Source: Candidatus Fusobacterium pullicola
Lineage (GTDB): Bacteria > Fusobacteriota > Fusobacteriia > Fusobacteriales > Fusobacteriaceae
Length of the DNA: 59,136 nt
Direction of reading: 5' to 3'
Assembly: GCA_018883725.1 (NCBI GenBank)
Contig: JAHLFN010000019.1
Coordinates: 1 to 59,136 of the forward strand
Shown: piece by piece, positions 1 through 12,908 of the stretch
Position numbering within the stretch: the stretch's first letter is position 1
Layout: each line of letters starts with the position of its first letter
Translations under genes and position numbers: made by a program
Notes under the pieces: model-generated
What the model saw: the letters and a program-made list of their open reading frames with translations, nothing else
What the model was told of the DNA's origin: nothing
Database searches by the model: none

Positions 1-252
1 TTAAATCTGGTAAATGATGTTGCTAAACGTTTATCTGATGCTTGTTTTGAAGATAGTGTATTTATAAAATATAATATAGCAAATGGTGTTAATGTAAAAA
101 CACCAATAAAAGAAGAGAAAATAAAAGAGTGCGGAGTAATGGTTTTAAAAGGAGAAAATAAAGAGTTAATTGAGAAAATAAATAATGGTTTAGTTAACTT
201 AAAAGCAAATGGAGTATATGATAAAATTATTGCTAAGTATTTAAATAATTAA
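1..252 (+). CDS. Solute-binding protein of an amino-acid-type ABC importer, C-terminal fragment
   Basis: This is an open frame from the first base to TAA at 250-252, so the gene starts upstream of the window. The 83 visible residues end in the pattern ANGVYDKIIAKYL, which is typical of the last helix of family 3 periplasmic binding proteins for amino acids. Just before it sits a strand with VMVLKGE followed by a helix (ELIEKINNGLVNLKANG), as in that family's second lobe. A strong terminator follows 51 bases later, so this is the last gene of its unit. The ligand cannot be told, and the rest of the importer would lie upstream. Family assignment is moderately secure. Confidence 0.6.
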   Translation, partial: LNLVNDVAKRLSDACFEDSVFIKYNIANGVNVKTPIKEEKIKECGVMVLKGENKELIEKINNGLVNLKANGVYDKIIAKYLNN

Positions 253-303: not shown

Positions 304-345
304 AAGATTATGAAAAATAGCCAACTTTCATAATCTTTTTTTTAT
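304..345 (+). terminator. Rho-independent terminator after the solute-binding protein gene
   Basis: There is a 12-bp perfect stem (304-315 with 326-337) and a 10-base loop, and a run of eight T begins inside the right arm. It isolates the pilus locus downstream from read-through. Confidence 0.85.
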
Positions 346-392: not shown

Positions 393-419
393 TTGACTTT
401 TTTTTTTTTTTGATACACT
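393..419 (+). promoter_or_regulatory. Candidate phase-variable promoter of the pilus locus (14-T tract in the spacer)
   Basis: A good -35 (TTGACT, 393-398) is followed by an uninterrupted run of 14 T (398-411) and then by a -10-like TACACT (414-419). The spacer is 15 bp, two short of the 17-bp optimum, and nearly all of it is the homopolymer. Gain or loss of T residues by slipped-strand mispairing would therefore change promoter strength. This is known for fimbrial promoters elsewhere (Bordetella fim poly-C, Haemophilus hif TA repeats). Here it is inferred from sequence only. Confidence 0.6.
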
Positions 420-538
420 AAGTAAGTCGAAATAAGATTATAAAAAAAAATACAAAAAAATTTACATGGTATATGAGAGGGCATATTTTCAATTGGGAAT
501 TACTTTTGAAATTTAAAAAGGTGGGAGTGATAAAAAGC

Positions 539-1396
539 GTGAAAAAACAGTTGATTATTTTTTTCCTTTTTGTTTTTAACTTGTTAAGTTATTCCAAAAT
601 ATATAAAAGTGAAGTTGTAAATATTTCAACAAATGAAAGCTTGATTATTGGAAAAACAAGTAGATTAAATTTTAATATGGTTATGCAAGTAGAAGGTGAA
701 AATATTACACAGGATGATTTTTGCTCTTTTTTTAAGGAGCAAGGGAATGATTTTGTAAAAATTAGTAACTTAGAAATAAAGAATAATAAGTATAAAAAAA
801 GAGGGAATAATATTTATTTTTCAGAAATAAATGATCGTTTAAGTGAAAAGTTAGAGTTACCTATTACAGGAACGCTTATATTTAACTGGAACAAAAATAC
901 ACGAAGTGTTGTCAATAGAATAGAGGAAATAAATATAGGATATGTTAATAGCGAACAGAACCCTATCCTTTTGTCTATAAATCTTTCAGATTTAGATCCA
1001 ATTGCAAATATAAAGGTTGAAGTTATTGATGATATGGACTTGGGAACTGTCTTTTCTGGAGAAAAATTAAGTACAAAGAATGTAAATAGTAATGGAACTC
1101 CAGCTAAGATAAGAATAGAGGGAGAGAATAATAAAAAAATTAAAATAAGCATTCCTGAAAGTATGAGTATTGTCAATAGTAAAAACGATACCTTAGCTGT
1201 TAAATTAGGGTTTAGAGAGAATAATAGCAATGTTTTAGAAAAGACTTTAAATAGTAATACTGGAAAAATTAAAGATGACCAAACTATTATTCTTGATGAT
1301 GTTTTAATAGACGGAGAGTGTCAAAGTAATAAAAATAGTAATGGGACATATGAGGGTAGTTTTGTAGTCAGAGTTGAATACTGTTTAGATAGTTAA
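539..1396 (+). CDS. Candidate two-domain pilus tip adhesin
   Basis: This is a secreted protein of 285 residues. The frame is open from an ATG at 473, but no ribosome site precedes that ATG. GTG 539 (or GTG 527) follows GGTGGGAG and gives a clean signal peptide (MKKQLIIFFLFVFNLLSYS). The N-terminal part, about 150 residues, resembles nothing I recognise. The C-terminal part (about residues 155-285) has the layout of the pilins downstream: a strand, then DLGTVFSGEK, then an RIEGENN strand, and a last strand FVVRVEYCLDS like their VVVRVAYN endings. A receptor-binding domain fused to a pilin domain, encoded first in the locus and before the chaperone, is the plan of tip adhesins. Function is inferred from architecture; no ligand can be named. 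Confidence 0.6.
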   Translation: MKKQLIIFFLFVFNLLSYSKIYKSEVVNISTNESLIIGKTSRLNFNMVMQVEGENITQDDFCSFFKEQGNDFVKISNLEIKNNKYKKRGNNIYFSEINDRLSEKLELPITGTLIFNWNKNTRSVVNRIEEINIGYVNSEQNPILLSINLSDLDPIANIKVEVIDDMDLGTVFSGEKLSTKNVNSNGTPAKIRIEGENNKKIKISIPESMSIVNSKNDTLAVKLGFRENNSNVLEKTLNSNTGKIKDDQTIILDDVLIDGECQSNKNSNGTYEGSFVVRVEYCLDS

Positions 1397-1411: not shown

Positions 1412-2149
1412 ATGAAAAAGATTATAGTAGGGATATTTATAATATTAACAACTATTACAAATGCAATAAGTTTTACTGTTTATCCAACGAGATTTGAAAT
1501 TGATTCAAAATCAGTAGGTATTTATGAGGCAGAGGTAGTGAATAATACAGAGGAGCCATTAAGAGTAACTATGTATACTGAAGAGGATGATAATTTTGGA
1601 AAGGAACATAATATTAATGAAAATATTGTGGTAGTTCCTAAAAATATTGCTTTGAAGCCAGGAGCTTCACAAACAGTAAGATTTAGATTTAAACCAGATA
1701 AAAATAAAACAGATGGAGAGTATAAATCTAACATTATTTTTAAGGAGATTCCTCTAGATATAAAATCAGTAAGTAAAGCAGAAAATAATGAGAATATGAC
1801 AAGTAATGTTAGATTTATTACTGAAATGGCTGTACCTGTTTATGCTTTGGGAGATAATTTAATTAGAGAGGGAGAATTAAAAAATATTAAAATAAATATA
1901 CAGGGTTCAGTCATGAATATCGAGGCACAAACTGTTTCAAAGGGAAACAGCAAAATAGAGTTTTCATACTCAATAAAGGAAGTAAATGGATCATATAAAA
2001 CTGATGGAATACTTGGATATAGTTTAAGAAATGGGGAAAGTAAGATTTCAACTTCTATACCTTTAGAAGAAAAACTAAAAGGAAAGAAGTTAGAGATAAA
2101 AATCTATGATACACAAAAAGAATATTACAAAAACAAAGTAAACTTTTAA
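1412..2149 (+). CDS. PapD-like periplasmic pilus chaperone (first copy)
   Basis: The protein has 245 residues with a signal peptide ending near ITNAIS. Domain 1 shows the PapD-like pattern: mature start FTVYPTRFEID, a strand LRVTMYTEED, then NIVVVPKNIALKPGASQTVRFRF, the region around the conserved basic residue and the G1 donor strand. Domain 2 begins at about residue 130 (FITEMAVPVYAL). Such chaperones fold pilins in the periplasm by donating a strand and hand them to the usher. The gene lies 15 bp after the adhesin and 16 bp before the first pilin. A paralogue at 7993 shares most motifs (VVPKNI, LKPG, VRFR). Family confidence is good; the exact chaperone class is not assigned. Confidence 0.8.
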   Translation: MKKIIVGIFIILTTITNAISFTVYPTRFEIDSKSVGIYEAEVVNNTEEPLRVTMYTEEDDNFGKEHNINENIVVVPKNIALKPGASQTVRFRFKPDKNKTDGEYKSNIIFKEIPLDIKSVSKAENNENMTSNVRFITEMAVPVYALGDNLIREGELKNIKINIQGSVMNIEAQTVSKGNSKIEFSYSIKEVNGSYKTDGILGYSLRNGESKISTSIPLEEKLKGKKLEIKIYDTQKEYYKNKVNF

Positions 2150-2165: not shown

Positions 2166-2648
2166 ATGAGAAAAACATTATTATTATTAGGAGCATTAGG
2201 AGTATTTGCATCTTTATCAGCAGCAAACGATATTGATGTATCAGGAAACCTAGAGATAAAAGCTGAGGTTGTTACTCCACTAAAATTAACTTTAAGTCCA
2301 TTAGATTTTGGAATTGTAGCACAAGGAGGAACTAAAACAGCTTCAAATCCAGGAGCAATCAAAATAGAAGGACAAACAGGAAGAAACGTAAATATTTATT
2401 TCACATCAAATGGAGTAGATAATAACTTACTTGCAAATAATGTAACACTAAACCATGAAAGAGTAGAAGGGCAAACAATAAATTATGTACCTGATGTTAC
2501 TCTTAACGGACAAAGATTAACAAATCAAACAATCGCTTTAAGTTCTGGAATTGCAGAGTTAAAAGTTGGAGGAAGCGTAACAGCTGCTTCTGATGCTGCA
2601 ATAGGAAATTATAATACTGATGTTGTTGTAAGAGTAGCTTATAACTAA
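2166..2648 (+). CDS. DUF4402-like pilin subunit 1 (candidate major pilin)
   Basis: The protein has 160 residues with a signal peptide cleaved after about ASLSAA. The mature protein begins with alternating residues (NDIDVSGNLEIKAEVV) that could act as the donor strand. It continues with the DUF4402 hallmark LSPLDFGIVAQGG, a strand AIKIEGQTG, and a last strand DVVVRVAYN with the near-terminal Tyr typical of chaperone-usher subunits. It has no cysteine. GGAGGA lies just before the ATG. Its position next to the chaperone and before an internal terminator suggests high expression. Role as main shaft subunit is inferred. Confidence 0.75.
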   Translation: MRKTLLLLGALGVFASLSAANDIDVSGNLEIKAEVVTPLKLTLSPLDFGIVAQGGTKTASNPGAIKIEGQTGRNVNIYFTSNGVDNNLLANNVTLNHERVEGQTINYVPDVTLNGQRLTNQTIALSSGIAELKVGGSVTAASDAAIGNYNTDVVVRVAYN

Positions 2649-2669: not shown

Positions 2670-3167
2670 ATGAAAAAAAGTTTATTAATATTAGGATTAT
2701 TAGCAGTTTGTGGAATAGCAAATGCTGCCGATACTACAATGGATGTTACTGCTAAAGTTGTAGGAAGTGCTTTAGAAGTAAATACAACTGCAGTAAATTT
2801 TGGAGAAATTGCTAGAAATGCAACAAAATCTCAACCAGATACTCCAGGAAGAGTTTCTATATCTGGAGATGCAAATAGCCGTGTATCTGTAACTATATTA
2901 AATACTTACAATGGAACTGCTGATGGAGCAGTTGTTTTATCAAGAGTTGCTGACCCAAGCGACTATAGAAAGTTAACATATACTCCTTACTATACAGTAA
3001 ACGGAACACAAATAACAGCTGGTGAATTACAACATACAGGTATAACACTAGATGGAAATGGAAGTAAAGAGATTAATGTAGCAGGAACTTTACAAGCTCC
3101 TCAAAACATAGAAGTAGGAGATTACTCTGCTCAAATGACGATTAAGGTAGCTTATAAATTACAATAA
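2670..3167 (+). CDS. DUF4402-like pilin subunit 2
   Basis: The protein has 165 residues. The frame is open from TTG 2658, but that codon is part of the ribosome site TTGGAGG (2658-2664), so the start is ATG 2670. The signal peptide ends at IANA. The mature protein (ADTTMDVTAKVVG) has the alternating N-terminal strand, the motif VNFGEIARN, a strand RVSISGDANSRVSVTI, and a closing strand MTIKVAYKLQ. It is paralogous to the subunit before it (22 bp upstream) but clearly diverged, so the fibre may have two structural subunits. A 13-bp-stem terminator follows its stop closely. Confidence 0.75.
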   Translation: MKKSLLILGLLAVCGIANAADTTMDVTAKVVGSALEVNTTAVNFGEIARNATKSQPDTPGRVSISGDANSRVSVTILNTYNGTADGAVVLSRVADPSDYRKLTYTPYYTVNGTQITAGELQHTGITLDGNGSKEINVAGTLQAPQNIEVGDYSAQMTIKVAYKLQ

Positions 3168-3235: not shown

Positions 3236-3709
3236 ATGAGACAAATATTATTATTAACATTGTTATCTATATTTTTTAGTAAAACTTATAGTGAAGAGGC
3301 TTTGGTTAGAGTAAGTGCTAAAATTTTAATTCCATTAAAAGTTGAGGTTACTCAACATTTAAATTTTGGAGATATATTTAAAGGCGGAAAAAATTTTTCT
3401 GCTAAAGATACTGGAGAGTTAAAGGTAAGTGGAAATGGTAGAGTTAGACTCCTTTGGAAAGATAGTTTAAATACAGAATATCAATCTATAGAAAAGGGAT
3501 TGAAAGTAGCTTTAAGTAATAACAAAGGGAATAGCTTTAATGTAACAGTTTCTCCAACTTCACTTGGAAATTTACACGATTTTACTGTAACGGAAAATAA
3601 TGATAAAATTGTGAAGATAGGTGGAAGGATAGATTCGTTGGATAAATCTTTACCAGAGGGAGACTACAGTGGAAGTATTCTTATTAGAGCAGAGTATTTA
3701 AATGATTGA
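3236..3709 (+). CDS. DUF4402-like minor pilin
   Basis: The protein has 157 residues with a signal peptide ending at about KTYS. The mature part starts EEALVRVSAKILIPLKVEV, then LNFGDIFKGGKNF (the DUF4402 signature position), and closes with ILIRAEYLND. AAAGGAG precedes the ATG. Because it lies behind the internal terminator and next to the usher, a low-copy subunit (adaptor, anchor or terminator of the fibre) is more likely than a shaft subunit. That is inference. Sequence kinship to the two pilins upstream is seen in the strand pattern and the F-G-x-I motif. Confidence 0.7.
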   Translation: MRQILLLTLLSIFFSKTYSEEALVRVSAKILIPLKVEVTQHLNFGDIFKGGKNFSAKDTGELKVSGNGRVRLLWKDSLNTEYQSIEKGLKVALSNNKGNSFNVTVSPTSLGNLHDFTVTENNDKIVKIGGRIDSLDKSLPEGDYSGSILIRAEYLND

Positions 3710-3974
3710 GTTTAATATTGGGAATATATGTTGAATTATAAAAATTATGGAAAAAATATTAAGTAGAGTTTTTTTGAAATTAAATTAAGTAGAAATAATA
3801 TGATTAATATAATTTATACCTTTATTTAAAAAATTTTGAAAAAATTTTAAGGATTGCTAGAAAAAATCAGCTTTACTACCTATCTATTTATTCCATTATT
3901 AAATAATTAAATTTTTAATTAGTAAAATAGGGAGACTGATATTATGAAGTATCAAATAAAAAATTTAAAGATAG
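3710..3974. other. AT-rich spacer before the usher gene
   Basis: No gene is seen before 3944. A weak promoter is possible: TTAAGT (3785-3790), a 17-bp spacer and TATAAT (3808-3813). Since the terminator at 3182 would cut transcription, a second promoter here would make sense, but the -35 is poor. A leader frame starts at 3944. Confidence 0.35.
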
Positions 3975-4003
3975 ATGAAAAGAGTGAGAATAAAGTTAGC
4001 TAG
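3944..4003 (+). CDS. Putative 19-codon leader peptide overlapping the usher start
   Basis: AGGGAG (3929-3934) lies nine bases before ATG 3944, and the frame reads MKYQIKNLKIDEKSENKVS then TAG at 4001-4003. The usher ATG (3975) lies inside this frame, shifted by one base, and has no good ribosome site of its own. Translation of the leader could therefore load ribosomes onto the usher start (coupling). The peptide itself resembles nothing known. An alternative is that this ATG is fortuitous. Confidence 0.4.
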   Translation: MKYQIKNLKIDEKSENKVS

Positions 4004-6605
4004 TATTGTATTGGTTTTACTGCTAGCTCTTGACGTAAAAACCTATTCCCAAATTGATACTGAATCCCTAGAAACAACATATATACAGATAAGAGTAAAG
4101 AAATTAAGAGATGATTTTTTTGAAGTAAAATACAATTTTTCTACTGATGAATACTATATTGGATTAAATACTCTTTTCTATTTATTAGAAATTTTTACCT
4201 TGGATATAGACAGTGCAAAGCGAGAAGTATCAGGAAATTTAGATGGTAAAAAGATAGATGTTAGATTTCCTGTTGATAAAAGCTTTGAAATGAATGGAGA
4301 GTTATATGTTGCTCCGGAATTATTAAAAGAATATTTAAACTTCTCACAAGTGAGTTACAACCCAAATATACTTTCTTTGGAATTACAGCCTAGTTTTACT
4401 TTAGCTTATGAACAAAGAGAAAAAGGAAAACTTGAGAGAATGCGTTTGGATAGAAAAGCTGGAGAAAAGGTTAAAAATTATAATTATGAGATGAAAGGGA
4501 AAATTTTAAGACCAGGTCTATTAAAATTAAACTATTCAATTCCCAATATTGATGAGCAATATTATTATTTAGATTATGAGTATGGGACAGAGCTTCTATA
4601 TGGGCAATATTATATGAATGGAACCATAAAGCCAGAGAGTGAAATAGGGGATGTCAAGTTAGTATACTCTAATTTTTGGAAAAATAATACAATTACATTG
4701 GGAACTTACTCACCACAAACTCCAAATTTTATAAATCTATCTTCTAATCTGATTGGAGTTAATATAAATGCTGATTCAACCTATGCTAGAAAAGAAAACG
4801 GAGTAACCATAATAAAAGGAGAGGCTTTAAATGCTGACTCTGTTGAGATTTATAGAAATAATATACTTATAGATTACGTATCTGTAATTAATAATCAATT
4901 CCAATTTGAAATAAATGATGGAATATTAAATTCAGATTATCTCTTAAAAATATATCATAATGATGGAAAGATAGAGGAAAGATGGGTTTATTCTTTAGGA
5001 GATGAAGAAGCATTAGAAGCTGGAAAAAGTAAATTTATTTTACAATTAGGTAAAAATAGAAATGATAGTAATTATCAGAATATAGTTGGAGGATATTATG
5101 GAATTTCTGATAATATAACTGTTGGTAGTGAGTTTTATAATTTGAAATTAGATACAGAAGAAAATTTTAATTTTTTAGAAAATACTATTCTATTTAAGAG
5201 TCACGGTTTAAGCTATCCACTTTTAATAAATTATAAAAATTATTATATATTAGATGATAACGAGCTTTCACAAGAAATAGCAATACTCCAAAAATTTCAT
5301 AATTTCAATTTAAAGTTTGAAAGAGATGAGTATTCAAGTATTATTACTCAGAAAAATAATACAAAGCATTCAACTTCTTTTTCGATTAATACTTCTCGTT
5401 GGAATACATCTTTTGATATCGGAATACAAAAGAAAAGAGTAATAGAAAATGGAGATAATGAAGTAGACCAAAAAAGTCTTTATGGTGCTATTTATTCATC
5501 AATACTTTCACCTGTTTCTTTAAACTTAAAGGTTGAAAAAATTCTTACTAAAGGAAGTGAAGCAACTATTTATAGCCCCTCAATAAGTTTTTCTAGGGGA
5601 GTTAATGTCATTTTAGATGGAATAATTGAAAAAAATAAAGATGAAGTAACTCAAAATTATACCTTAAAAATTGGAAAAAGACAACTTCCTATAATAAAAG
5701 ATAAGATTTATGGAGATTTAAATTTACAAGTTGAATATGATCATAAATATAGAGAATTTAAGTATGGAATATCTTTTAATATAGAACTTGATAGTTTTAT
5801 GAAAATGGCTTTTAGAAATACTGTTGTTATTGATGAAAATAAAGAGATAGGAAGAACATCAGGGGTTAATTTAGGAAAGGTTATAAATTTAAGCAATCCA
5901 TTAGAAGAGATAAGTAATAATGCTGGAGTAAATGATTTTATTATTCAAGGGCATATTTTCTTGGATAAAAATGGAAATAGTGTATTTGATAATGATGATG
6001 AACCTATTGAAGGAGCTTCTATAGAGGTTGAAAATTACAAAGCCGTATCTAAAAATAATGGCTTCTATCTTTTAAGTGGTACTTCAGATAAAGATATTGT
6101 CACATTAAAAGTCAATAGAAAGAGTATTGATATTATGCAAAAAAATACAAATGGTGATGTTAATATAAAAGTTAAAAATTCAAGAAGTATAAATATAGAT
6201 ATACCAGTAGAGACAGTTTCTATGATTACTGGAAACATTTGGAATACAGATGACTTTGTTGAAAAAAAATTCACACAAAATATAGCTAGTACAGTTATTA
6301 TTCTTGAAAAAAATGGGGAGCTTTATAGAGAGATTGACCCAGAGTTTGATGGAATGTTTTTCCTTGATGATATATCCCCTGGAAAGTATAAATTGAAGTT
6401 TACATATATAGGAACTGAAAATGTTACTTTCCAACCAGACGAACTAGATGTAGATATCGTATTGGAAAATCCGTATGAAGGTTTATATTTAGATTCATTA
6501 GATACTAAGATGGTATTGAAAGATATCGAAAATGTTGAGGAAACAGAAACTGACGATATAGATAATATTGTAGATGAATTTAACGATTTAATAAATTTTG
6601 ATTAA
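3975..6605 (+). CDS. Outer-membrane usher-like pilus assembly platform
   Basis: The protein has 876 residues with a signal peptide (MKRVRIKLASIVLVLLLAL...TYS). An N-terminal domain (about 27-130) is followed by a long run of alternating strands expected of a beta-barrel (about 145-640). Within it, about residues 275-330 read like a plug/middle domain (DSVEIYRNNILIDYV, then LKIYHNDGKIEERWVY). The C-terminus holds an SdrD-B/carboxypeptidase-regulatory-like repeat (GHIFLDKNGNSVFDNDDEPIEGA, about 659-680) and a second beta-sandwich with DDISPGKYKL. Ushers bind chaperone-pilin complexes and export the fibre. Its length suits the family (about 800-900) but the N-terminal domain is divergent from FimD/PapC; it looks closer to the alternative TcfC-like ushers. 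Context (chaperones, pilins) is the strongest support. Confidence 0.7.
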   Translation: MKRVRIKLASIVLVLLLALDVKTYSQIDTESLETTYIQIRVKKLRDDFFEVKYNFSTDEYYIGLNTLFYLLEIFTLDIDSAKREVSGNLDGKKIDVRFPVDKSFEMNGELYVAPELLKEYLNFSQVSYNPNILSLELQPSFTLAYEQREKGKLERMRLDRKAGEKVKNYNYEMKGKILRPGLLKLNYSIPNIDEQYYYLDYEYGTELLYGQYYMNGTIKPESEIGDVKLVYSNFWKNNTITLGTYSPQTPNFINLSSNLIGVNINADSTYARKENGVTIIKGEALNADSVEIYRNNILIDYVSVINNQFQFEINDGILNSDYLLKIYHNDGKIEERWVYSLGDEEALEAGKSKFILQLGKNRNDSNYQNIVGGYYGISDNITVGSEFYNLKLDTEENFNFLENTILFKSHGLSYPLLINYKNYYILDDNELSQEIAILQKFHNFNLKFERDEYSSIITQKNNTKHSTSFSINTSRWNTSFDIGIQKKRVIENGDNEVDQKSLYGAIYSSILSPVSLNLKVEKILTKGSEATIYSPSISFSRGVNVILDGIIEKNKDEVTQNYTLKIGKRQLPIIKDKIYGDLNLQVEYDHKYREFKYGISFNIELDSFMKMAFRNTVVIDENKEIGRTSGVNLGKVINLSNPLEEISNNAGVNDFIIQGHIFLDKNGNSVFDNDDEPIEGASIEVENYKAVSKNNGFYLLSGTSDKDIVTLKVNRKSIDIMQKNTNGDVNIKVKNSRSINIDIPVETVSMITGNIWNTDDFVEKKFTQNIASTVIILEKNGELYREIDPEFDGMFFLDDISPGKYKLKFTYIGTENVTFQPDELDVDIVLENPYEGLYLDSLDTKMVLKDIENVEETETDDIDNIVDEFNDLINFD

Positions 6606-6630
6606 ATTTATAAAGGAGGAAAAATCGAAG

Positions 6631-7539
6631 TTGCTTAAATTATTTCAAATAAAAAAAATAAGTATACTTTTTTTAATTTTAAATTCTTTTGTTTATGCTA
6701 AAAGTTTTGATATAGCAGAAAAGATACAGAAAGATGGTATCGTTTATAGAAAAGGGGAAGAAAAAGCTTTTACAGGAGCTTTTATAGGAGACGGAATATA
6801 TGAAGAGTATAAAGATGGGATAAAGAATGGAAAATTTATTGGAAAAGTCACTATTGAGAAAAATATCTACAATTATGAAGGAGTCTATATCGAAGGAGTA
6901 AAAAATGGTGAATGGAGAATAAGATATCCAGATGGAAAGATAAAGGCTATTCTTAATTATAACTATGATTTACCAAGAGGACAGTGGACATATTTCTATG
7001 AAAATAATCAAATAAAAGGATATGAGAATTTTAATAACGGAGTTATTTATGGTGAGAGTATTTTCTATCAAGAAAATGGAAATATTCTTAAAAGAGGAAC
7101 CTATAAAAATGGACTGATTGATGGAGAGTTAGTTCTATATAGAAAAAATCATAACTTAGATTCTATTGTAAATTTTTCTGTTGGAAATTTAGATGGAAAG
7201 ATTGAGGTATATTCACAAAATAATATTCTTCAGCTACAAGGAAGTTATAAAAATAATAAAAGGGATAACCTGTGGAAACTTTATTATAATAATGGAGATT
7301 TAAAAATGATAGTTTCTTACTCTCATGGCTTAAAAAATGGAAGAATGGTAATTTATGGAAAAGCTGGAGAGATAGTACAGACAACAATATATAAAGATAA
7401 TAATGAAATTGATAATACAGGACAAATTATCTTGAAAGGTCCAGCTGAAGTAGAAGATAATATAGCTAATCGATATCAAAAATTAGTTTATAGTTTTGAG
7501 TATATGAAATATAATAAAGCTTTAAATGACTTAAAGTAA
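6631..7539 (+). CDS. Exported MORN/YwqK-type repeat protein in the pilus locus
   Basis: The protein has 302 residues. An in-frame TTG at 6598 overlaps the usher end, but AAAGGAGGA (6612-6620) fits TTG 6631, which gives a signal peptide (MLKLFQIKKISILFLILNSFVYA). At least six repeats of about 23 residues follow with the pattern G-x-Y-x-x-G-x-x-x-G-x-W/E-x-x-Y-x-x-(N/D)-G, e.g. GVKNGEWRIRYPDGKI and NKRDNLWKLYYNNGDLK. Such repeats are beta-hairpin MORN variants found in YwqK-like proteins. Periplasmic or surface location is expected. A role in pilus assembly, or as a surface accessory, is suggested only by being co-transcribed between usher and chaperones. Confidence 0.7.
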   Translation: MLKLFQIKKISILFLILNSFVYAKSFDIAEKIQKDGIVYRKGEEKAFTGAFIGDGIYEEYKDGIKNGKFIGKVTIEKNIYNYEGVYIEGVKNGEWRIRYPDGKIKAILNYNYDLPRGQWTYFYENNQIKGYENFNNGVIYGESIFYQENGNILKRGTYKNGLIDGELVLYRKNHNLDSIVNFSVGNLDGKIEVYSQNNILQLQGSYKNNKRDNLWKLYYNNGDLKMIVSYSHGLKNGRMVIYGKAGEIVQTTIYKDNNEIDNTGQIILKGPAEVEDNIANRYQKLVYSFEYMKYNKALNDLK

Positions 7540-7552
7540 TAGGAGACAGCAT

Positions 7553-7996
7553 ATGAAGAGAATATTAGTTATTTTAGTAGTAGTTTTATGTAGTACTAAT
7601 TTATTTGCTCTTAGTTTTTCTATAGCACCTACAGAATTTGATATATCTTTAGATAAAAATCAATTACATGAAGCTTACATTATGAATAATACTTTTTCTC
7701 CACTGAGAATAGAGATATACAAAGAAGATGTAAAAGGATATGAAGATAAGAGTATAACAGAGGATATAATAATATTTCCAAAGATTATATCTATTCGTCC
7801 TGGAGGAAAACAATTAGTCAGATTCAAAGTAAAGCCTAATCCCTCAAGAGAAAAAGGGGTTTATAGAAGTTTATTAGTTTTTAGAGAGAGTCCAAACAAT
7901 GTAAAAACAATTTCAAAAAATGAAAATGGAAATTTTGAAACAAAATTAAATTTTATAACAGAGATTGCAATTGGAGTAAAAGGAGAAAAGAAATGA
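7553..7996 (+). CDS. Single-domain ('half') PapD-like chaperone
   Basis: The protein has 147 residues with a signal peptide ending LFA. The mature part matches only domain 1 of the chaperones in this locus: LSFSIAPTEFDI, SPLRIEIYKEDV, IIIFPKIISIRPGGKQLVRFKV, ending in FITEIAIGVKGEKK where domain 2 would begin. It stops in an ATGA overlap with the next chaperone gene, so it looks like a maintained short gene rather than a random break, although a decayed duplicate is possible. The G1-like strand is kept (RPGGKQLVRFKV). The absence of domain 2 would remove part of the subunit- and usher-binding surface of a normal chaperone. Confidence 0.7.
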   Translation: MKRILVILVVVLCSTNLFALSFSIAPTEFDISLDKNQLHEAYIMNNTFSPLRIEIYKEDVKGYEDKSITEDIIIFPKIISIRPGGKQLVRFKVKPNPSREKGVYRSLLVFRESPNNVKTISKNENGNFETKLNFITEIAIGVKGEKK

Positions 7997-8736
7997 AAAG
8001 AGTTTTATCAGTATTATTTTTTCTAGTAGTTAATTGTATAGGATATAGTTTAAACTTTAAATTATATCCAACAAGCTTTAATTTAGATATAAATAAAACA
8101 AGTGTAAATGAAGTAACAATCATAAATGAGACATTAAATCCATTAAGAGTTACGATATATCCTGAGAAAGATATTGAGTTTGGAGAGGATTACAATTTAA
8201 ATAATAATATCACAATTGTGCCTAAAAATATATCTTTAAAACCAGGGGGATCACAAGTTGTTAGATTTAGAATAAAACCTGATGCTACTAGAAAAGTAGG
8301 AGAATTTAGAAGTTATTTAACATTTAAGGAGATATTACCTGAGATAAAAACAACTGCAACTACAAATGCAGATGGATTAATGAGTAATATTCAATTTATA
8401 ACAGAGCTATCTATTCCGGTTTCAGCTTCTGGAGATTCTTTAGTGGTAGATGGAAGTGTAAAAAATGTTAAATTAAAATATAATGGAGGAAACTCAATAT
8501 TAACAGCTACTCTTACATCAAAGGGAAATACAGCTATGAGATTAAATTATGATTTAGAAGTAATTGGAAAAAATATAAAAAGAACAGGTTCTATAGGAAG
8601 TAGTAAAAGAGAGGGAGTGTCAGAATTAAAGACACCAATTGAATTAGGTAAGAAGTTAGATGGAAGTAAAGTAAAATTAATAATCAAAGATCAAAATGGT
8701 AAAGAGTATTACAATAATACTTTAATATTACAATAA
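7993..8736 (+). CDS. PapD-like periplasmic pilus chaperone (second full copy)
   Basis: The protein has 247 residues with a signal peptide ending at about CIGYS. Domain 1 includes LNFKLYPTSFNLDI, LRVTIYPEKDIEFGEDY, NNITIVPKNISLKPGGSQVVRFRI; domain 2 starts near FITELSIPVSASG and carries LRLNYDLEV-like strands. It is closest to the chaperone at 1412 (same length, shared FGEDYN/FGKEHN and VPKNISLKPG blocks). The ATG overlaps the stop of the half chaperone by four bases, so the two are translationally coupled and may act as a pair. It is the last gene of the locus. Confidence 0.8.
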   Translation: MKRVLSVLFFLVVNCIGYSLNFKLYPTSFNLDINKTSVNEVTIINETLNPLRVTIYPEKDIEFGEDYNLNNNITIVPKNISLKPGGSQVVRFRIKPDATRKVGEFRSYLTFKEILPEIKTTATTNADGLMSNIQFITELSIPVSASGDSLVVDGSVKNVKLKYNGGNSILTATLTSKGNTAMRLNYDLEVIGKNIKRTGSIGSSKREGVSELKTPIELGKKLDGSKVKLIIKDQNGKEYYNNTLILQ

Positions 8737-8739
8737 TTT

Positions 8740-8755
8740 ATTTAGCTATTATATT
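8740..8755 (+). repeat. 16-bp direct repeat, copy 1 (left of transposase remnant)
   Basis: This 16-bp stretch (ATTTAGCTATTATATT) is identical to 9385-9400. The pair brackets the transposase remnant and the 100 bases after it. It is longer than the target duplications usual for IS4/IS5 elements, so it may mark a recombination or deletion joint instead. Confidence 0.7.
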
Positions 8756-9280
8756 GAGTAGAAAAGTCACTTGCTGAAATTTCAATATAACTTCTCATTG
8801 AGAAAAAATATTCGCTTGGTATTTTGCGATATTTTCTACTTTCTAAGGGAATCCAAACTCTATGAGAACATGATTGAGAACATTCTTTATCATAACAACG
8901 ATAATTTATCCTATTTTGATGTTTATTATAACCGTTTCGATTATCAGCAATGAGATAAATAGGGGTATTTAAATCAGCAAAGATAGGGGCTATTGTGGAA
9001 ATTAATTTTCTTAAAATAGGACTGTCATGATGATTCGCTGGAGTAAAGTCAAAAGATATAGGCAAAATAAAAGGATAAACGATACTCAAAGTATGAATTT
9101 TAATCCCTAATTTGCCATTGAGGTATTTATTGTAAGAATATATAGTTCCTTTTGGATATAAATCATCAGTAGCAATAGGTTTAGAATCTAAGGAAAAAAT
9201 CCGCATAATCCAATTAAATCTTTAGATAAATCAAGTTTCGGACTATGTGAAGAGTAAGAAAAAGAACTTCTAAATTACAT
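8742..9280 (-). pseudogene. Decayed DDE transposase fragment
   Basis: On the minus strand a remnant reads M-stop-FRSSFSYSSHSPKLDLSKDLIGL (from 9280), then shifts frame near 9206 and continues as MRIFSLDSKPIATDDLYPKGTIY down to 8742. The joined product carries a first-catalytic-Asp context (SLDSKPIA) and LIADNRNGYN, as in IS4/IS5-type DDE transposases, but lacks most of the N-terminal domain and the end of the catalytic domain. A nonsense codon, a frameshift and truncation show it is inactive. It separates the pilus locus from the HD-GYP gene. The family is assigned loosely. Confidence 0.7.
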
Positions 9281-9328: not shown

Positions 9329-9384
9329 AAAAGTAAAATGAAAAAAATTTTAATTTATAAGAGTTTTAATAAATTGAATCAACA

Positions 9385-9400
9385 ATTTAGCTATTATATT
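9385..9400 (+). repeat. 16-bp direct repeat, copy 2
   Basis: This is an exact copy of 8740-8755, lying inside the N-terminal extension that the HD-GYP gene would have if it started at ATG 9338. Confidence 0.7.
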
Positions 9401-9415
9401 TTTAGGGGGGAAATT

Positions 9416-11497
9416 TTGAAAAATATATTTATTTTATTCTATCTATTAGTAAGTACTTTACTACTGGGAGAAAATATAACCATATCATATCCTAAAAATA
9501 AGATGAGTTATCATTTTTATAAAGATTTAACAACAAATAAGTATTCTGGAAACTATGCTTATTTATTTAATGAAATAAATAAAGATAATAGATATGAATT
9601 TAAATATGAACTAGAAAATGATGTGTATAATGAAGATATTCAGATTAGAAAGATTGGAAGTTTTAGTACAAACTACTATTATCTTGAAACTCCATATACA
9701 CAAAAAGTTTTTATAATAGGAAATGATGATGTAAATATAGATGATATTAAAAATAAAGAGCATTTACGAATAGGATGTTTAGGGCTTGGAATTGAAGATT
9801 TGAAAAGAGTTCAAACTATATATAATTTAAAAGCTTATGAAACAGTTACGTTTTTTAGAAATGAAATGGATGCTATGTATGCTTTAAAAAATAGTAAAGT
9901 TGATGTTCTTTTTATATTAAATTTTAAAAAAAATAACAAATTTGATGGACAAATTTTAGGAGTTGCTAATCTAAGAGAGTATATAGGGATTAGAAAAGAT
10001 CAAAGTGAATTACTAGATAGAATAAAGCCTCAATTAGATTTATTGTTCGAAAATAATGATAAGTTATTAAAATTAAATATGAAAAATAAAGAAAATTATT
10101 TAAAATATCTTTATGCTGATTTAAATGATTATGAAGAGATAAGAAAAGAGTATAAAAAGTTAAAGGTATTGGTACCAAATAGAAATTATATTCCTTACTA
10201 TAAAGAAAAAAGATTCAAAAAAATTGGAATAGTACCATTTATTATGAAGAATATCGAAAATTTTTTAGGAATTCCTGTTGAATATGTTTTTTCAGAAGAT
10301 GAGGATTGGGATATAAAGGCAGTGGATTTTTCTAATAATGATAAGAGTATAAGTAAAGAGTACTATAGAACAAAAATAGTAGGAATTAATCACATATATG
10401 ATAATAAAATTACAAATTATGATCAATTAGATGATTTAAGAATTATAAAGTTAAAAGGAATAAATTTAGATACTCTCTTAAAAAAAGTTAAGACAAAGGA
10501 AATTATTGAGGTTGATTCATTAAAGGAAGCGTTTAAACTATTAAAGGATAGAGAGGGGGATATTCTTATAGGACCTTATTCTCTATTAAATAGTTATATG
10601 AACACTTATAATTATAATAAATATTTTAAACTTTCTCTATCGCAATTTGAAGTAGTAGTTGAGATGACTTTTAAAGATGAGAGATTAAAGAATATATTAA
10701 ATGACCTGCTTCAAAGTTATTCCGTTGATGAGATAGAATATGTTTCAAATAGGGCTATACTTTTAGATAAACCAGTGAATATTTGGTTGATTATAACAGA
10801 TATATTAGTGGTTGTTTTTATCATATTTAGTATAACTTTTATTAGAAAGCATATAATTAAATGTAAATTGAATGAGTTTTTAAAACTATTTATAAAAATA
10901 GAGGATATAAACTTAATGAAGGACGAACGTTCTTTATATCATATTCAAAATGTGGCAAAAATTTCAAAACTTATTGCTCAAGAATTAAAGTTTAGTAAAA
11001 GAAGGATAATTACAATTGAAAAATTGGGACTTTTACATGACATTGGTTTAATTTTTATTCCAAGTAAAATTATTTTAAATAAGAAAATAGGAACTTTATC
11101 TGAGAGGGAAGAAGAGATATTCAGAGAACATATACAATTGGGAGAGCTTTTATTAAAAGGAATAGGAATAAGAGCAAGAAAAAGAAGGATAATTGAATAC
11201 CATCATGAAAATCTTGATGGTAGTGGTTATTTAGGGATTTCAAGAGAGCATTTACCTATTGAAGCAAGGATTTTAAGGATAGCTGATATGTATGATAGAA
11301 TAGTGGGATGGCAAAATAACTCCCATGAGAAAGCAATGGAGTTTTTAGAAAAATATAAGAATATATATTTTGACGAGAGATTAGTAGATATTGTATCTGG
11401 ATTAGAAAAAGAGTTAAAAGCTATATATACTTATGAAAATCAAAATAAGGATAATGATAGATTATTAAAGGAATTTGGAGATATTTTAACAAAATAA
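9416..11497 (+). CDS. Membrane HD-GYP-type protein with two periplasmic solute-binding-like domains
   Basis: The frame opens at ATG 9338, but TTG 9416 follows AGGGGGG and gives a proper signal sequence (MKNIFILFYLLVSTLLLG), so I take 693 residues. Two extracytoplasmic SBP_bac_3-like domains (ITISYPKNKMSY..., about 20-240, and KLKVLVPNRNYIPYY..., about 250-440) are followed by a membrane helix (about 455-478) and a cytoplasmic HD-GYP domain: HD at 541-542 and HHENLDGSGYL at 596-606. HD-GYP enzymes hydrolyse cyclic di-GMP. Here the usual HDIGK is HDIGL and GYP is GYL, so activity or specificity may differ. A ligand-sensing role is inferred. It lies 22 bp before a solute-binding protein gene, likely the same unit. 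Confidence 0.75.
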   Translation: MKNIFILFYLLVSTLLLGENITISYPKNKMSYHFYKDLTTNKYSGNYAYLFNEINKDNRYEFKYELENDVYNEDIQIRKIGSFSTNYYYLETPYTQKVFIIGNDDVNIDDIKNKEHLRIGCLGLGIEDLKRVQTIYNLKAYETVTFFRNEMDAMYALKNSKVDVLFILNFKKNNKFDGQILGVANLREYIGIRKDQSELLDRIKPQLDLLFENNDKLLKLNMKNKENYLKYLYADLNDYEEIRKEYKKLKVLVPNRNYIPYYKEKRFKKIGIVPFIMKNIENFLGIPVEYVFSEDEDWDIKAVDFSNNDKSISKEYYRTKIVGINHIYDNKITNYDQLDDLRIIKLKGINLDTLLKKVKTKEIIEVDSLKEAFKLLKDREGDILIGPYSLLNSYMNTYNYNKYFKLSLSQFEVVVEMTFKDERLKNILNDLLQSYSVDEIEYVSNRAILLDKPVNIWLIITDILVVVFIIFSITFIRKHIIKCKLNEFLKLFIKIEDINLMKDERSLYHIQNVAKISKLIAQELKFSKRRIITIEKLGLLHDIGLIFIPSKIILNKKIGTLSEREEEIFREHIQLGELLLKGIGIRARKRRIIEYHHENLDGSGYLGISREHLPIEARILRIADMYDRIVGWQNNSHEKAMEFLEKYKNIYFDERLVDIVSGLEKELKAIYTYENQNKDNDRLLKEFGDILTK

Positions 11498-11519
11498 TTG
11501 ATAGAAAGAAGGTAGAAAA

Positions 11520-12908
11520 TTGATAAATATTATAACTAGATTTTTAATTTTTTTTACAATTACTACATTTAGTTTTTCTATTTATGAAGATGAAATTAAT
11601 GATTTATTTAGTCAAGAGGTTGTTGAAAAAAGTAATAAATTGATTATAGAACAAGAAGTAAAGGTTGAAACAATAGACCCAATCAAATTAAGAGATACTT
11701 ATTCTAGAAGAGCTATGCAATATTTTTATGCTCAATTATTTCGTTTTAATAAAAACGGTGAGATTGTTCCTTACTTACTAGCAGAGTATAAGTATAATGA
11801 TAATACAGAACTTTACTGCAAATTGAGAGATGATATATATTTTTCAAATGGTGATCCAATAACTTCAGAAGATGTTAAATCATCAATTGAAAATTTCCTA
11901 AAAAATGGATATATGAATAATTTGTATGCTTCTATTAAACAGGTTAAAGTTATCAATAATAAGGAGTTTTTAATAATTTTAAATTATCCAGATTATGATT
12001 TAAAAATTGGATTAACTAATCCGTCGATGTCAATATTAAAGAGAAAAGATGGAAAAATTCTTACTAGTGGTCCTTATAGTATAGAGAGATTTGATAACAG
12101 AAAATTAAAACTTAAGAAAAATGAATATTATTTTGAAGATGATATTCCTTTTGAAAAGATGGATATAAAAGGAGAGTTAAGTAGTTATCAGAGAGTTATT
12201 AACTCTTTAAATATACCAAACTATTATTCTTATGACTTATATCAAGAGGATGTTGATAAGGCTAAAAAAATAGGATACTTAAAAGATAAAGAAGTAAGTA
12301 AAGATTCAATATTTGATATAATATCCTTAATTTTTGGAAATGAGAGAGAATATTCTCTAGAAGAGAAAAAAGCATTGGAATCTTTATTAAATCGTGATGC
12401 TACAACGATATATCCTAAGGATTTATTTGATATAAAAGTCTCTGCTTTAGAAAAAAAATATAGCAAGGAAGAGGCTGTTCAACTTCTTAAAAAAAGTGGG
12501 ATATTCAATGAAAAAATTAAAATTATGTGTTTGAATACTATTCATAATAGAAACTATGTTCAATATGTAGCTTATAATTTAACTGAGAATGGATTAGATG
12601 TAGAGGTTGAAATTTATAATCTAGAGAAATTTTTAACTAAATTAAGAACAAAAGACTATAATATAGCATTATACAATGTAACTATGAATAAGGCATATCC
12701 TTTAACAAGTCTAGAAAAAATAATAGTTGGAGAAATTATTGCACCTGAATTAGAAGATGCATTACTTCCATTTTTCCAAATGTATAAAAATGAAAAAAAT
12801 AAAAATAATAGAGCAAGGTTAATAGATAAGATATTTTACTTAATATATAGCAGTAGGTATATTATCCCAATAGCTCACCAGCAAACATATATTATAAAAA
12901 ACTTCTAA
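11520..12908 (+). CDS. Family 5 (oligopeptide/nickel-type) solute-binding protein
   Basis: The protein has 462 residues from a TTG start with AGAAGG upstream. It has a signal peptide (MINIITRFLIFFTITTFSFS) and no lipobox. Typical SBP_bac_5 blocks are RAMQYFYAQLFRFNKNGEIVPYLLAEYKYNDNTE split around short gaps, DDIYFSNGDPITSEDVKSSIE, and LTSGPYSIERF. Members deliver peptides, nickel or other solutes to an ABC importer, but no permease or ATPase is nearby. It follows the HD-GYP sensor by 22 bp, so it may feed ligand information to that sensor rather than a transporter. The C-terminal lobe is somewhat short for the family (about 500-540). Confidence 0.75.
   Translation: MINIITRFLIFFTITTFSFSIYEDEINDLFSQEVVEKSNKLIIEQEVKVETIDPIKLRDTYSRRAMQYFYAQLFRFNKNGEIVPYLLAEYKYNDNTELYCKLRDDIYFSNGDPITSEDVKSSIENFLKNGYMNNLYASIKQVKVINNKEFLIILNYPDYDLKIGLTNPSMSILKRKDGKILTSGPYSIERFDNRKLKLKKNEYYFEDDIPFEKMDIKGELSSYQRVINSLNIPNYYSYDLYQEDVDKAKKIGYLKDKEVSKDSIFDIISLIFGNEREYSLEEKKALESLLNRDATTIYPKDLFDIKVSALEKKYSKEEAVQLLKKSGIFNEKIKIMCLNTIHNRNYVQYVAYNLTENGLDVEVEIYNLEKFLTKLRTKDYNIALYNVTMNKAYPLTSLEKIIVGEIIAPELEDALLPFFQMYKNEKNKNNRARLIDKIFYLIYSSRYIIPIAHQQTYIIKNF

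Follow-up and report, generated by a model that had tools for sequence, protein, structure and literature searches.

A homopolymer-spaced promoter as the probable length-dependent control of a Fusobacterium pilus operon

Slippage-driven changes of spacer length, modulating a sigma-70-type promoter of a pilus operon, are in our judgment the best and a quite probable explanation of the T tract located near the beginning of the analyzed DNA (i.e., 59,136 nucleotides of the Candidatus Fusobacterium pullicola contig JAHLFN010000019.1, hereafter the window). The tract would form the spacer of this promoter, slipped-strand mispairing during replication would add or remove T residues, and each gain or loss would shift the -35 hexamer relative to the -10 hexamer, raising or lowering transcription of the adhesin-chaperone-pilin genes. 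What speaks for such a switch is the exact promoter anatomy between a terminator and the operon, the presence in it of the longest homopolymer of the genome, and the difference between 14 and 16 T residues in two strains. Further support comes from the promoter boxes, kept across paralogous copies with unequal T runs, and from an A tract occupying the same place in another genome of the genus (G001).

The first-pass annotation had described TTGACT, 14 T residues, and TACACT with a 15-bp spacer directly upstream of an adhesin-chaperone-pilin gene set; the sequence and its coordinates were confirmed exactly, and the gene set was corroborated by its Pfam families (Table 1). It should be stressed that T398 counts twice, since it both ends the -35 hexamer (393-398) and opens the tract (398-411), which is followed by GA and by TACACT (414-419), with positions 399-413 constituting the spacer. 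Absent from that annotation was the extended -10 (TGN), formed by T411, G412, and N413 together with TACACT; the TGN-TACACT combination is conserved in the four pure-T copies of F. mortiferum An814 as well as in the A-tract copy of G001. The intrinsic terminator at 304-341 (z = -3.5, with none of 200 shuffles equally stable) closes the upstream gene of a family-3 solute-binding protein (SBP3), and the promoter therefore occupies its own short leader ahead of the operon. Other assignments were rejected, i.e., the alternative -10 hexamers for the 393 box at 16-18 bp (ACACTA, CACTAA, and ACTAAG), none of which is TATAAT-like, and the rival scan match TTGATA-17-TAAGAT (410-438), which is not preserved in An814 (TTGCTA at the corresponding bases).

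Table 1. Features of the promoter region and of the downstream gene set (positions in the window).
Feature	Position	Strand	Basis
SBP3 gene, 3' end, cut by contig start	1-252	+	Pfam SBP_bac_3, E 3.6e-5
Intrinsic terminator ending the upstream SBP3 gene (stem of 12 bp, then T run)	304-341	+	Fold, -10.1 kcal/mol
-35 hexamer TTGACT	393-398	+	Sequence; kept in paralogous promoters
T14 mononucleotide tract (F. mortiferum An814: T16)	398-411	+	Sequence and strain comparison
Promoter spacer, 15 bp (An814: 17 bp)	399-413	+	
Extended -10, TGA-TACACT (TGN plus hexamer 414-419)	411-419	+	TGN-TACACT conserved in other copies
DUF4402 protein, adhesin-like (listed ORF; start probably at 539)	473-1396	+	PF14352, E 5.9e-8
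Putative RBS GGTGGGAG and likely GTG start 539-541, followed by signal peptide	518-541	+	Read from sequence
PapD-type pilus chaperone	1412-2149	+	PF00345, E 3.3e-7, over cut-off
Pilin, DUF4402	2166-2648	+	PF14352
Pilin, DUF4402/SCPU	2670-3167	+	PF14352, PF05229
Pilin-like, DUF4402, under curated cut-off	3236-3709	+	PF14352, E 5e-4
Usher-like outer-membrane protein, 876 aa	3975-6605	+	Size, context, conservation
MORN-repeat protein (constant in these operons)	6598-7539	+	PF07661
Two further chaperone-like genes (7553-7996, 7993-8736)	7553-8736	+	Similarity to 1412-2149 product by reading
SBP3-like sensor fused to HD-GYP-type domain	9338-11497	+	PF13487, E 1.5e-27; SBP part by reading
SBP5 (family-5 solute-binding protein)	11520-12908	+	PF00496, E 1.6e-26; An814 paralogues behind T10 and T9 promoters

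The first gene of the operon, whose adhesin-like product has an extra N-terminal part, probably starts at GTG 539 rather than at the mechanically listed ATG 473. Both a PapD-like chaperone (PF00345) and pilin-like subunits (PF14352, PF05229), by which a chaperone-usher pilus is recognized, are encoded downstream. The usher identity of the 876-aa protein is suggested by its size, genomic context, and conservation (relatives were found in 38 of 61 Fusobacteriaceae genomes); searches of Pfam and NCBIfam gave no usher match and that of PDB no match, the only recognizable domains being carboxypeptidase-regulatory-like ones near the C-terminus, and a single-sequence AlphaFold model reached a pLDDT of 30. 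The 266-bp gap (3709-3975) before this gene lacks a stable hairpin and possibly holds a second promoter. The two further chaperone-like genes gave no Pfam match. A DDE transposase remnant with a weak Pfam match (8742-9206, minus strand) lies between the pilus and SBP genes, and An814 is devoid of most of this stretch. This type of Fusobacterium pilus operon constantly includes the SBP3/HD-GYP fusion and SBP5 genes (9338-12908; also in L139 and L143-L148). Their recurrence inside related operons of several Fusobacterium species may account for the sharing of the promoter type by SBP genes; ABC transporter genes were not found beside them in the operons listed.

The T14 run is the longest T/A run in the 1.94-Mb, 87-contig genome (of which the window is contig C19), followed by runs of 13 and 11, and these three are all its T/A runs of at least 11; runs of at least 10 number eight in the whole genome versus approximately 95-260 expected. 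By base composition alone T14 is unsurprising, as about 2-8 runs of at least 14 T per genome are expected (Markov extrapolation from the window), and in the window T10 matches were about as numerous (5) as in dinucleotide shuffles (5.4). It is the conjunction of the tract with the promoter context that exceeds chance. The joint pattern TTGAC-T7+-N(0-14)-GNTACACT, searched across 61 Fusobacteriaceae genomes, gave six matches, compared with one for the pattern read backwards as a control. Pure-T spacers account for five of the six (one in the window genome and four in An814), and among the 61 genomes no pure-T TTGAC-T(n)-GN-TACACT promoter was found outside these two genomes of the species. A chance T run, although compositionally possible, was rejected in view of the exact promoter context and the paralogues. 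The longest run seen in An814 was an intergenic T21 (G003:C207, ~92965).

F. mortiferum An814 (genome G003), the closest named relative and listed as the same species, carries four such promoters, with n = 16, 15, 10, and 9. The T16 copy (17-bp spacer) precedes the pilus operon, while the T15 copy (16 bp; TTGAC-T15-GG-TACACT at L049:8055-8082) precedes the upstream SBP3 gene, which is full-length in this strain (L049:8195-8935). In the window genome two contigs terminate in or beside SBP3 copies (window 1-252 and the end of G000:C37), so this assembly lacks the T-tract promoter belonging to the upstream SBP3 gene. The T10 (11 bp) and T9 (10 bp) copies of An814 stand before two SBP5 genes, of which the former is split near residue 429 and the latter lacks residues 1-67 and contains a stop; hence, it is before decaying genes that the two shortest spacers are found. 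A second, intact SBP3 gene of An814 has the promoter TTGACT-TTTTTTAAAATTTTTGA-TAGACT (L048:4574-4602, G003:C261), whose interrupted spacer (T7-A4-T5-GA) is exactly 17 bp long and which resembles a naturally locked state of the putative switch.

In G001, a third genome of the genus, TTGAC-A11-TGATACACT leads the orthologous pilin operon, with A instead of T. Its exact spacing is uncertain, since an alternative -10 (TATATT) would give an 18-bp spacer; either way, the tract lies within the spacer. In the same genome, a broken SBP3 gene is preceded by a 17-T run flanked by TTGA and GTTATACACT; the candidate T8 promoter of an SBP5 gene of this genome (G001:C8) was dropped, as an ordinary TTGACT-16-TATAAA is present at that site. 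A spacer tract was found neither at the two other pilus loci of the window genome nor, in other species, in the leader regions of related operons, which indicates that the tract belongs to this locus and not to the operon type. In G035 (L150, ~5562-5615 in reverse-complement coordinates), a DUF4402 pilus operon is preceded, at a distance of 200-250 bp, by A12 and A17 tracts; they stand upstream of the promoter boxes, not between them, and possibly represent a second kind of length-modulated promoter. Another candidate homopolymer-spaced promoter of the Fusobacteriaceae is TTGAC-A13-TAGTACAAT of G031:C28:2994-3020 (L152); its spacer is 15 bp long, and the TRAP-transporter-like solute-binding gene behind it is split in two frames.

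Two additional T residues had been predicted to give a 17-bp spacer, and exactly this state (16 T, 17 bp) was encountered in An814, as against 14 T and 15 bp in the window strain, within an alignment of 8.9 kb with 99.3% identity and very few indels; the base change A413C accompanies the difference. A constant tract length across isolates, named beforehand as an argument against switching, was not what we saw in the one other strain compared. Where orthologous stretches of the two strains were compared, a length difference was seen in 3 of 713 tracts of 5-10 nt and in both tracts of at least 11 nt (2/2); the T tract thus shows the ordinary length-dependent hypermutability, and any run of at least 11 in this species seems to be unstable. 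The second of these longer tracts (T11/T12) lies outside any promoter spacer, and therefore length variation alone is no proof of an evolved switch or of selection for switching; the informative part is the position of the tract. No further alleles were found in a scan of viral contigs.

The strongest competing view, which we regard as rather improbable, is that the promoter is real and its tract a passive hot spot, i.e., that long A/T tracts could be unstable merely through their length and drift slowly between lineages, giving fixed expression levels with neither switching within a clone nor selection. It would agree with the variation of all compared runs of at least 11 (including T11/T12), with the existence of just two known alleles, and with the short-tract copies before broken SBP5 genes, for which decay may fit as well as switching. 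Against such passivity stand the strong depletion of long runs elsewhere in the genome, the shared promoter position of pure runs of 14-17 in paralogous or related promoters, and the replacement of the T tract by an A tract in G001. Far less probable is a structural role (a rigid or bent A/T spacer, an UP-like element, or part of a terminator) with coincidental or constitutive boxes: in this AT-rich genus, promoters and terminators indeed often have A/T tracts nearby, but the boxes on both flanks are conserved in the paralogues, UP elements sit upstream of the -35 and not between the boxes, and the T tract as a terminator was rejected because a distinct one, which has a T run itself, is present upstream (304-341). 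Finally, a sequencing or assembly artefact, to which long homopolymers in draft assemblies (that of An814 being short-read-style, judging by its contig name) are possibly prone, is the least credible source of the 14/16 difference, given that it amounts to 2 nt, is joined by the base change at 413, and has almost no counterpart among the 713 shorter tracts.

With regard to promoter strength, sigma-70 promoters work optimally with a 17-bp spacer and weakly with one of 15 bp. We infer that the promoter is used, that it would be strongest at 17 bp and weaker at 15 bp, and that, within a population, the changes would be repeated and reversible. Owing to the extended -10, some activity may persist at 15 bp and the effect of spacing may be softened, so a graded output is just as probable as an ON/OFF one, and pilus production in the window strain is more likely low than absent. 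The phase-variable switch originally proposed is partly supported: its promoter assignment and spacer-length idea gained support from the paralogues, the interrupted 17-bp spacer, and the A tract of G001, whereas the switching itself and the OFF state are conjectural.

The locus resembles the class of promoter-spacer simple sequence repeats (hif, vlp, and fim3 type): a homopolymer lies between -35 and -10, its length shifts the spacer around the optimum depending on the isolate (in two strains only), and a surface structure, i.e., DUF4402/SCPU pilins with a PapD chaperone, is encoded downstream. In Mycoplasma hyorhinis, as outlined in a review (Citti and Wise 1995, reviewed in PMC10502178), each gene of the vlp surface lipoprotein family has a homopolymeric A tract in its promoter region. 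The similarity concerns the A/T homopolymer in the promoter and the set of several paralogous genes, each with its own tract; for vlp, expression is linked to tract length. The Fusobacterium locus differs in its phylum and in its genes (pilus and solute-binding-protein genes), several of the paralogous SBP genes decaying. For hifA/hifB of Haemophilus influenzae, a TA repeat was proposed to alter the -35/-10 spacing (PMC2651432; van Ham 1993), and there too the repeat lies between the promoter elements of a pilus operon (of chaperone-usher type in Haemophilus); unlike the Fusobacterium mononucleotide tract, whose promoter faces one direction, it is a dinucleotide repeat serving divergent promoters. 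The fim2/fim3 genes of Bordetella pertussis have mononucleotide poly-C tracts of 11-16 nt between the promoter elements of fimbrial genes, where at least 14 bp was reported as needed for fim3 and one-base changes switch or abolish Fim3 production (PMC10172299). Those C-tract promoters are activator-dependent (BvgA), whereas the T-tract promoter has a near-consensus -35, an extended -10, and no known activator.

Nucleotide tracts had previously led to the suggestion of phase variation in Fusobacterium; in the case of trimeric autotransporter adhesins, it was stated as not demonstrated (PMC6346709). In the literature searched, which covered a minority of subscription papers, we found no promoter-spacer switch described for this genus. 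The type of mechanism is therefore known (hif/vlp/fim3), the phylum is one for which we found no earlier report, and the link to a set of paralogous promoters is unusual. It is tempting, though doubtful, to propose that dispersed paralogous homopolymer-spaced promoters of F. mortiferum let the pilus and its companion SBPs (putative sensors) vary independently of each other, creating combinatorial states of surface and sensing, and that the SBP and SBP-HD-GYP proteins may be part of the pilus system.

The natural 15- and 17-bp alleles, found in a close relative and a named strain, make a sharp test case, in which the fixed 17-bp paralogue provides an internal control. The SBP3/HD-GYP and SBP5 proteins may have a sensing or pilus-associated role in these operons. 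If the proposed switch is true, a little-studied Fusobacterium pilus would be under stochastic control and linked to a family of solute-binding proteins.
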